Below are positions 43,455-46,897 of a stretch of DNA of 64,000 nucleotides, one piece after another. The stretch is from the NCBI RefSeq assembly GCF_030409055.1, contig NZ_CP116619.1:2494628-2558627 (forward strand), read 5' to 3'. The position numbers and the translations under genes were made by a program. Origin of the DNA: Trichocoleus desertorum NBK24. Its GTDB lineage: Bacteria; Cyanobacteriota; Cyanobacteriia; FACHB-46. A model generated the notes under the pieces. It made no database searches, had not been told where the DNA came from, and saw only the letters and a list, made by a program, of their open reading frames with translations. Positions within the stretch are counted from its first letter, which is position 1; the number at the start of each line of letters is the position of its first letter.

Positions 43455-46034
43455 ATGCGTACAAGTACAGAAATTTCTACAGAAATCGAAGAAAAGTTTG
43501 GATTTTTTCCACCTTTCTTCTCGCCTGCATTAGCGACTCCAAAAATCTTAGAGAATCTCTGGCAGCAGACTCTCGCAGCCTACGTTGAAAATCCTTTACC
43601 CCCTTTATTTAAAGAAAAACTTTCAAGTTATCTTTCCCGGTTCTGTCCTGTTCCCTACTGCCTGATTTGCCATAGTTGTTCACTGCACCAACTGGGTATG
43701 CAAGCGCAAGAAATTCTGACTTTTCTCGAACTTGCGCCACCAAACCCCCAAGAGATCAATATTCATCTAGATCGATTAAGCGGCCAAGCGGATGTCGTCA
43801 GAATGCTCTCACAGCTCAATGCAGCGCTAGATGAGAGTTTGCTGTGCTGCGCTATCTTTATTGCCTTGCAGACCGACCAAGCTGAGGGCTGCCGACAGGA
43901 ATTGCGTCAGCTTTTGGGTGATGAGAACTACCACTATCTCGTCACTTTCATTGCTTATATCAAAACCTCGCATGAATGGATGAAAGCGCATCCTGGAGTG
44001 TCTTACGAAGCAGATCAGCGGTTTCAAAACAACTTCAGCGATTTAGTGGAACGTGAGCCTCGACTGGTTAACTTCTTTAATACTTATTGGCAACGAACGC
44101 AGCAAGAGTCGCTAGGATGTCCGCGCACGCCGGAGATCCAAATCACAAATGAGACTGGAGAAGCTGCGGCGATCGCTAACCTCAACTTTGCCCAAGCCAT
44201 CAACTCTGCTTCCGATGGCATTTTGTTGAGCGATCCAAACCAGGACGACAATCCAATTATTTACGTCAATCCTGCCTTTTCCCGGATTACAGGCTATTCA
44301 GTCGCAGAGGTTTTGGGGCGTAACTGTCGATTTTTGCAAGGTGCTGCCACTGATCCTAAGACTGTGACCCAGATGCGGGAGGCGATCGCTCAACGGCGAG
44401 AAATTCAAACCACGATCCTGAACTACCGCAAAGATGGTCAGTCCTTTTGGAATCAACTGAGGATTTCTCCAGTTTGCTCCAAAAGCGGGGAGCTCCTGTA
44501 TTTTGTGGGCTTACAAACGGACATCACCGAGCGAGAGCAAACCGAGGAGCAAATTCGTGAACAAGCCCTGCTCTTTAACCATTCTCAAGATGCCATTCTG
44601 GTTTTGGATCTAGAAAACCGCATCCTATTTTGGAATAGTGGGGCAGCTCGCTTGTTTGGGTGGGGCGTTCAGGAAGCGATCGGTCGCTACCTAGATGAAC
44701 TGCTGTTTGACGAGCTGTGTCCAACCCTGCAAGCCGCTCAAAGAGCTGTAAACGAACAGGGTGAGTGGCAAGGTGAACTTCAACAACGCACAAAAGATGG
44801 CAGACAAGTAACGGTAGAGAGCCGTTGGTCTTTAATTCGGCAAAGCAATGTCCCTAAGTCGATCTTGATCGTCAACACCGACATCACCCAAAGAAAACAA
44901 GCTGAGAATCAGCGCTTACGAACTCAGCGCCTAGAAGGCATTAGCACCGTAGCAAGCGGATTGGCGCATGACCTCAACAACGCACTCTCACCCATTCTAA
45001 TGGCGATTCCTTTGCTCTCCCAAAAGCTCCAGGACGAGCAAAGCCAGCAACTGTTAGGGATGCTAGAAAGAAACGCGCAACGGAGTGCCAGTCTGCTGAA
45101 GCAGGTGCTAGATTTTGTCCGAGGCATTGAAGGCGAAAAGCGAACTATAGATGTCAATCAACTCATCTTGGGCGTTGAGCAAACCCTGAAACAGCGATTT
45201 CCTCAGAACATCCTCATTCGCAATTCGCTCAGCGCTTCGGACTTATGGGCGATATCGGGAGATGCGAACCAACTGCACCAGGCCCTGATGCATCTCTGTG
45301 ACAATGCGCGCGATGCCATGCTCAACGGCGGTATTCTGCGGATTTTGGCCGAAAATCTTTGGATTGATGCGAGTAATCTGCGGACTCATGCGATCGCTGA
45401 AATGGGTCCCTATGTTCTGATCACGGTTTCTGACACAGGTTTTGGCGTCCCCACCGAAAATCTCAACCGCATTTTTGAACCCTTCTTTACCACCAAAGCG
45501 TTTGGGCAAGGGACAGGCTTAGGGTTGTCGCGAGCCGTAGGCATCATCAAAGGTCACGGGGGAGCCGTTGATGTGTTTAGTGTGGTAGGGAAGGGCACCC
45601 AACTCAAGGTGTATTTACCTGCAATTCCGCGTTCTATTCCTAGCAACCACCCGCCCGAATCAACGGCTGAAGGCAGCTTAATTCTGGTGATCGATGGCAA
45701 CCAGCCTGCCCGTGATCTGGCTCAAATAACGCTAGAAGACTGTGGCTATCAAGTTCTGACTGCTAGTGATGGCATTGAGGCGATCGCGCTTTACGCTCAT
45801 CACTGGTCAGAGATTTGCCTGGTGATTTTGGATATGGCAGTTCCAGAACTTGATGCCCCCACAGTGATTCAGGCATTGCACAAAATCAACCCGCAAGTTG
45901 GGGTCGTTGTCACGACTAACCAGTTCCTCACCGATCCAGTGAGTGCTGAGCTGAGCGGCAATATCAAAGCAGTTCTCAATCATCCCTACACCCGCGAGGA
46001 ACTGACGAGCACGTTACAAGCAATTTTTGGCTAA
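43455..46034 (+). CDS. LOV-PAS sensor histidine kinase with AhpD-like N-terminus and degenerate receiver
   Basis: An 859-residue hybrid kinase. Residues ~1-215 are helical and contain [15 protein letters not shown] (68-81), a CxxCxxC-like cluster recalling AhpD/carboxymuconolactone decarboxylase folds. The LOV domain (~245-357) has GRNCRFLQG with the flavin-adduct cysteine at 291 and the FVGLQTDIT glutamine. A second PAS spans ~372-480. HisKA has [12 protein letters not shown] (His505) and the ATPase has [15 protein letters not shown] and GTGLGLS. The receiver (~742-859) keeps Asp793 but has IDGN instead of the acidic pair, and His843 replaces the conserved Lys. Expected to answer blue light; partner unknown. 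Confidence 0.9.
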
Positions 46035-46897
46035 GTTCCTTCTGCCCTAAGTTTGGGTGCTTGCTTCAGATCCCCCAAGTTGAACAAGAAGGGGACACCA
46101 TTGCCTTGATCTCCCATGACTAACACTTCAGGCATTTGAGACCCACCCTGTCGCCAAGCCTCGATCGCTTCTTTTTGCAGGACGAGCTGGCCTCCTTCCG
46201 CTTTTAGGGTTTCAGCTAGCAGCCGTTGGGCTTCGGCTCGGCCTCGTGCCCGGTTGATGTCTGCTTGGGCTTCCTGTTCTGCTTCTTGCGCCACATACAC
46301 AGCTCTCTGGGCTCGTTGCTCCGCGATTTGCTTCTCCTCTACGGCTCTAGCAAACTCTGGCGAGAAAGTCAGATCTACCACGCTCGTATCGATAACTACG
46401 ATGCCGTACTTTTCCAAACGCTGGCTCAGCGCTGCATCAAAGTCTTCTTTGAGGTCGTTGCGCTTGGTAATCGCTTCTTCGACGGTTCTTCTCGCTGCCG
46501 CAATTTTGAAAGATTCTTGCGTTTGGGGTGCAATGATTTTGGAGACAATGTTTGCCAAGGTACCTTGCTTACGCCGAATCTCAACTACTTCAGCCGGATC
46601 AATGCGGAAGTTGATGGCAAAGCGTGCCGACAAGTCTTGCAGATCGCGCGTGGAGCTTTGGGCGGGTACTTCAAATTTCTGCACAGTCAAATCGTAGATC
46701 GACACCTGAGAAACGAGCGGCGGCTTAAAGTGCAACCCTTCTTCGAGGACGCCATCTTTGGCCTTACCCAAAATGCTGAGTACCCCTGCTTCACCAGGGT
46801 TGATGACAATAAAAGAGTTGAAACCCACTAAGACTAAAACGGAAGCGATAATCCCTAGCACGAGGGATTGCCAGGTCTGAAGATATTGGCTTTTCAA
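46031..46897 (-). CDS. prohibitin family (SPFH) membrane protein
   Basis: A 288-residue protein with one N-terminal helix (~12-32) and an SPFH domain (NPGEAGVLSILGKAKDGVLEEGLHFKPP to ~200), then a coiled coil rich in Ala, Glu, Gln and Arg (QRAVYVAQEAEQEA). Prohibitins form ring scaffolds that regulate membrane proteases such as FtsH. Its TAG and the histidine kinase TAA share the bases CTAA at 46031-46034, so the two genes meet tail to tail with no spacer. Confidence 0.93.
   Translation of the reverse strand: MKSQYLQTWQSLVLGIIASVLVLVGFNSFIVINPGEAGVLSILGKAKDGVLEEGLHFKPPLVSQVSIYDLTVQKFEVPAQSSTRDLQDLSARFAINFRIDPAEVVEIRRKQGTLANIVSKIIAPQTQESFKIAAARRTVEEAITKRNDLKEDFDAALSQRLEKYGIVVIDTSVVDLTFSPEFARAVEEKQIAEQRAQRAVYVAQEAEQEAQADINRARGRAEAQRLLAETLKAEGGQLVLQKEAIEAWRQGGSQMPEVLVMGDQGNGVPFLFNLGDLKQAPKLRAEGT

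Follow-up and report, generated by a model that had tools for sequence, protein, structure and literature searches.

A cyanobacterial LOV histidine kinase with an AhpD-like N-terminal domain and a degenerate receiver

Introduction

LOV hybrid histidine kinases, represented here by the source of the nearest solved LOV domain (6rhg, annotated 'Multi-sensor hybrid histidine kinase'), combine a LOV domain bearing a photoactive cysteine with PAS, kinase and receiver domains. AhpD/TIGR01926 proteins (PDB 3c1l, 2pfx, 2oyo, 2prr and 6k40) stand alone; they possess the first Cys of a CxxC motif together with the Glu, Tyr, second Cys and His of a proton relay. The relay of PA0269, an AhpD-like protein, is made up of Glu36, Cys48, Tyr50, Cys51 and His55 (PMC3141380). 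AhpD folds have also been repurposed for ligand binding, as in Sestrin, which binds leucine, and E. coli YciW is described in a review as AhpD-like, with N-terminal cysteines five residues apart (PMC11429811).

Here we describe a gene in the window (the whole stretch of 64,000 nucleotides that was analysed), which belongs to a complete cyanobacterial genome of 5.46 Mb. Its product has the LOV, PAS, kinase and receiver domains of the LOV hybrid kinases, but adds an AhpD-like domain before LOV and, within its own clade, carries a degenerate receiver. The added domain resembles those of YciW and the Sestrins in that an AhpD fold has been repurposed with its cysteines moved or lost, although neither of these is joined to a kinase, and it differs from the AhpD/TIGR01926 proteins in being fused to a sensor kinase at all. 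A search confined largely to open-access papers found no AhpD-like or CMD domain fused to a LOV domain or a histidine kinase.

Domain architecture and genomic context

Pfam placed the PAS/LOV domain at residues 254-359, a second PAS domain at 373-482, HisKA at 498-557, HATPase at 602-723 and the receiver at 743-854, and the domain order of the kinase is well supported (Table 1). The LOV domain has the GxNCRFLQ motif of LOV photoreceptors, here GRNCRFLQG (residues 288-296) with the photoactive Cys291, followed by NYRKDG..FWN and by GLQTDIT, which holds the LOV glutamine; the flavin-contact Asn and Gln residues are present, and the view of a preliminary description that both the cysteine and the glutamine are intact was borne out. 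The features of a histidine kinase (phospho-acceptor His505 and the ATP-binding boxes DTGFG and GTGLGLS) are likewise all present. A paralogue in the same genome, L035, has the same LOV-PAS-kinase-receiver order with an intact receiver.

Table 1. Positions of the kinase gene and its encoded features in the window
Feature	Position	Strand	Remarks
Whole gene: AhpD-like/LOV/PAS/HisKA-HATPase/degenerate receiver hybrid kinase	43455..46034	+	859 aa, ATG start
AhpD-like N-terminal domain (predicted), residues 1-221	43455..44117	+	AF2 pLDDT 92, VIA Z 13.9 to 3c1l, hhalign 96.6%
Active-site helical hairpin (predicted), residues 50-79: Glu54, Val66, Tyr68, Cys69, His73	43602..43691	+	Spacing identical to PA0269
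Lineage cysteine cluster, Cys64-x4-Cys69-x2-Cys72-His73-x-Cys75	43644..43679	+	Each Cys in 43-44 of 46 members
LOV domain, residues 243-366; photoactive Cys291 at 44325-44327	44181..44552	+	Best solved match 6rhg, E 3.9e-38
Second PAS domain, residues 367-485	44553..44909	+	Pfam
Histidine kinase core, residues 486-727; phospho-acceptor His505, DTGFG and GTGLGLS boxes intact	44910..45635	+	
Degenerate receiver, residues 738-859: Asp747-Gly748, Asp793, Thr821, His843	45666..46031	+	

Upstream of the kinase gene lies a Ser/Thr kinase gene with a repeat-rich C-terminus, and downstream, in convergent orientation, a prohibitin/SPFH-like gene (window 46031-46897) that overlaps its 3' end by four bases; both neighbours are kept in the two congeners, in which the locus is syntenic. 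No response-regulator gene was found near the kinase locus.

A degenerate receiver within one clade

The receiver had been described as retaining the phospho-acceptor Asp793 while losing both its acidic pair and its conserved Lys. Asp793 is indeed kept and His843 does stand in place of the Lys, but only the second residue of the acidic pair is gone (Gly748), Asp747 being retained. Thus, where the LOV paralogues have Asp-Asp, Asp, Ser and Lys, the window's protein has Asp747-Gly748, Asp793, Thr821 and His843, and it lacks the second acidic residue and the Lys of a functional receiver.

A tree of the AhpD-like domain places the protein in a clade of six (SH-aLRT 98), all of which have a LOV domain, and the aligned sequences indicate that receiver degeneracy is limited to this clade. 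One clade-mate (L111) has Glu-Gly and Gln among these positions, another (L004) has Asn at the phospho-acceptor Asp, and in a third (L006) the receiver is absent. Ratios of dN/dS, which are rough since synonymous rates are uneven along the gene (0.10 to 0.67 between the window and L110), were 0.20-0.30 for the receiver in the window's same-genus comparisons versus 0.03-0.07 in the L035 paralogue and its orthologues, whose receiver is intact. These values lie well below 1 and point to a domain that is relaxed but still constrained; with the residue substitutions, they agree with the degeneracy first proposed.

It is unlikely, in our estimation, that the receiver still weakly accepts phosphate on Asp793 and that the protein is an ordinary hybrid kinase, a reading compatible with any account of the N-terminal domain. 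The retention of Asp747, Asp793 and Thr821 and a Pfam Response_reg score of 39.9 bits (cut-off 30.2) are consistent with it, but Gly at the second acidic residue, His at the Lys position, the relaxed dN/dS and the state of the receiver in L004 and L006 all argue against it.

Two further observations concern relatives of the gene. The close relative in Nostoc sp. T09 (L004:6001-8595) has Ala at the phospho-acceptor His in addition to Asn at the receiver Asp and so may be a pseudokinase; kinase output is therefore not universal even within the window's clade. Synonymous divergence between the window's gene (43455-46034) and L110:4033-6609 is 0.67 in the AhpD-like domain and declines to 0.10 in the receiver, a drop that may reflect intragenic recombination or gene conversion.

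Assignment of the N-terminal domain to the AhpD superfamily

Residues 1-225 matched no curated family in Pfam and NCBIfam scans, and PF02627 was not reached by a direct Pfam scan of the domain; missed by these scans, the module is invisible in current annotation. Querying the PDB by sequence, with either the single domain or a profile of it, yielded only weak matches, the AhpD core 2ouw (E 0.33 and 0.2) being one of them. The family profile aligned over 148 columns with stand-alone AhpD-like (peroxidase-related) proteins (hhalign 96.6%, E 6.7e-10). These partners match TIGR01926 and PF02627. Four of them (L027, L028, L029 and L050) are recognised by NCBIfam peroxidase-related or AhpD-core models, and L028 provides a bridge to three solved structures of AhpD-like proteins (2oyo, 3c1l and 6k40; E 1e-15 to 1e-16).

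An AlphaFold2 model of the domain, built from an input of 15 sequences (pLDDT 92, pTM 0.89), has the all-helical AhpD fold with its active-site helical hairpin. Foldseek returned modest E-values (best 7.8e-3) at a probability of 1.00. VIA-align took a second look at Foldseek's own candidates and so covers the folds on that list: its best 20 rows (Z 13.9 to 5.8) comprised 19 AhpD/CMD-superfamily structures, including AhpD, peroxidase-related and carboxymuconolactone decarboxylase structures (among them the Bmp8 debrominase), and one Sestrin2 (Z 7.4), itself an AhpD-fold protein. The top match reached Z 13.9 (rmsd 3.3, 166 aligned), and the fold is common to residues 1-197 and the five AhpD/TIGR01926 structures named above (Z 13.4-13.9).

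Together, the profile match, the predicted model with its structural matches and the spacing of the active site indicate that the N-terminal domain belongs to the AhpD superfamily. The preliminary description had suggested an AhpD-like N-terminus and would have given the idea up had structure prediction disagreed; the prediction yielded an AhpD fold, and the profile match concurs.

Searching the host genome with PF02627 gave nothing over threshold, and by this model the genome has no stand-alone CMD/AhpD protein; the same model also misses the three host kinases that carry the AhpD-like domain. Two peroxiredoxins with a 1-cysPrx_C domain are encoded in the genome.

Distribution and partners of the AhpD-like domain

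The domain is conserved over ~220 residues in an alignment of 46 distinct proteins from which identical copies had been removed, and its dN/dS, a similarly rough ratio, is 0.05-0.08 among the window's same-genus orthologues, indicative of strong purifying selection. Conservation on this scale, coupled with such selection, argues that the N-terminal domain is no chance extension. Three copies occur in the host genome and three in each of two other congener genomes searched (3/3 genomes of the genus). Named genomes contributed 14 contigs with the domain (Nostoc, Coleofasciculus, Fischerella, Symplocastrum and Aliterella are among them), and matches were obtained in 13 of 292 sampled cyanobacterial genomes, four of the 13 having only weak partial matches to AhpD-like non-kinases. 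Non-cyanobacterial matches came from one Bdellovibrionales MAG and one Planctomycetota MAG.

In kinases the AhpD-like domain precedes LOV, GAF or PAS domains, and in the paralogue L035 it sits between GAF and LOV. A LOV-type domain follows it in 19 of the 46 members, 18 of which have the photoactive Cys, and the partnership with LOV changed at least eight times across the family tree while being more clustered than in shuffles. The earlier remark that such an N-terminus is not usual in LOV kinases therefore holds for databases, yet within the family the pairing recurs. Reuse with LOV, GAF and PAS kinases, with three copies in each genome of the genus, is as expected for a sensor module.

In one further protein (L038:6167-10186, + strand), the AhpD-like domain and a LOV-like domain without the photoactive Cys are joined to acyltransferase-3 and family-2 glycosyltransferase domains rather than to a kinase.

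A rearranged cysteine site

Counted from Glu54, the residues Val66, Tyr68, Cys69 and His73 sit at exactly the distances of the PA0269 relay, so that the Glu, Tyr, second Cys and His are spaced as in that protein and in AhpD/TIGR01926. The relay residues are nearly invariant across the 46 aligned proteins (Glu in 44, Tyr in 45, Cys69 in 43 and His73 in 43). The first Cys of CxxC, present in AhpD/TIGR01926, is replaced throughout the family, mostly by Val or Ile: none of the 46 members has Cys at position 66. The Cys-x-x-Cys plus Glu/His relay that marks a catalytic AhpD peroxidase is thus incomplete, and with its first catalytic Cys absent in every member, ordinary AhpD peroxidase turnover is unlikely.

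Compared with AhpD/TIGR01926, the family has extra conserved cysteines: Cys64 (44 of 46), Cys72 (43), Cys75 (44) and, in most, Cys172 (43), the last being Ser in the window's protein and both congeners. Read from the alignment, the N-terminal domain is not a canonical AhpD, since its cysteine set is rearranged. The N-terminal cysteine cluster noted in the preliminary description is therefore real (C64, C69, C72 and C75), but it is not the canonical AhpD Cys-x-x-Cys. The five-residue cysteine spacing in the published description of YciW matches that of Cys64 and Cys69.

The CxxCH motif formed by Cys69-x-x-Cys72-His73 raised the possibility of covalent heme, which we set aside; the protein starts directly with AhpD-like helices and carries cytoplasmic signalling domains.

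Proposed mechanism and alternative readings

We propose that the protein is a soluble orphan blue-light kinase (it has no adjacent response-regulator gene) in which an AhpD fold serves as a second, thiol-based sensor and the receiver has become a pseudo-receiver, a proposal to which we give an even chance of being right. Blue light would form a Cys291-flavin adduct in the LOV domain, presumed to bind flavin. The second input would be the thiol pocket of the AhpD fold (Glu54, Tyr68, Cys69 and His73 with Cys64, Cys72 and Cys75), which peroxide or the cellular thiol pool would oxidise or reduce. The PAS domain would relay both signals to the kinase core; this would autophosphorylate on His505 and hand the phosphate to a separate response regulator. 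The fused receiver would no longer be a normal phospho-acceptor and would be retained as a regulatory pseudo-receiver. Taken by itself, a redox role for the AhpD-like domain, argued from analogy, is about evenly balanced. More tentatively, the domain may found an undescribed AhpD-fold sensor family with a relocated cysteine site, mainly cyanobacterial, that supplies blue-light, GAF and PAS kinases with a signal of peroxide or thiol-redox state. If so, light and the oxidative stress it causes would be gauged by one and the same protein; photosynthetic cells need to tell when light does harm, and joint sensing of redox state and blue light would let a protein report this directly. Because the AhpD-like domain recurs beside LOV, the light-plus-redox idea is testable in one purified protein.

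Among other readings of the domain, that of a small-molecule sensor with structural cysteines, by analogy with the leucine-binding C-terminal domain of Sestrin, fares best but still appears unlikely. It would accord with the repurposing of AhpD folds for ligand binding (PMC11429811), with Sestrin2 among the VIA matches and with the loss of the first Cys of CxxC from all members; against it, Glu54, Cys69, His73 and three extra cysteines rank with the best-conserved positions, a pattern that favours thiol chemistry.

A slightly poorer prospect is a metal or iron-sulphur cluster held by Cys64-x4-Cys69-x2-Cys72-x2-Cys75, in which case the domain would sense oxygen, iron or, by way of the cluster, redox state. 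Four cysteines do fall within 12 residues and are conserved together in most members, but three of them lie on one predicted helix (68-79) in the AlphaFold2 model, and in the divergent members that lack parts of the cluster (L043, L046, L048, L049 and L127) the losses are not en bloc: L048 has lost 64 and 69 only, L043 72 and 75 only, L127 72 only and L046 69 only. The paired losses in L048 and L043 are somewhat easier to reconcile with two thiol pairs than with a single four-ligand cluster, a comparison drawn from a small sample in which L127 and L046 lost single cysteines. That the domain is solely a dimerisation or scaffold module, an AhpD fold with no sensing role, would suit its modular reuse with many partners but seems improbable, given that conservation extends beyond core positions to the cysteines and the polar residues of the active site, which hold their places.

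Stand-alone AhpD-like proteins in which neither catalytic cysteine is present (YALxVHLHGL) were also observed (L028:1270-1812 and L029:1270-1812); in the two genomes concerned, their genes adjoin an apparent GAF-adenylate cyclase gene.
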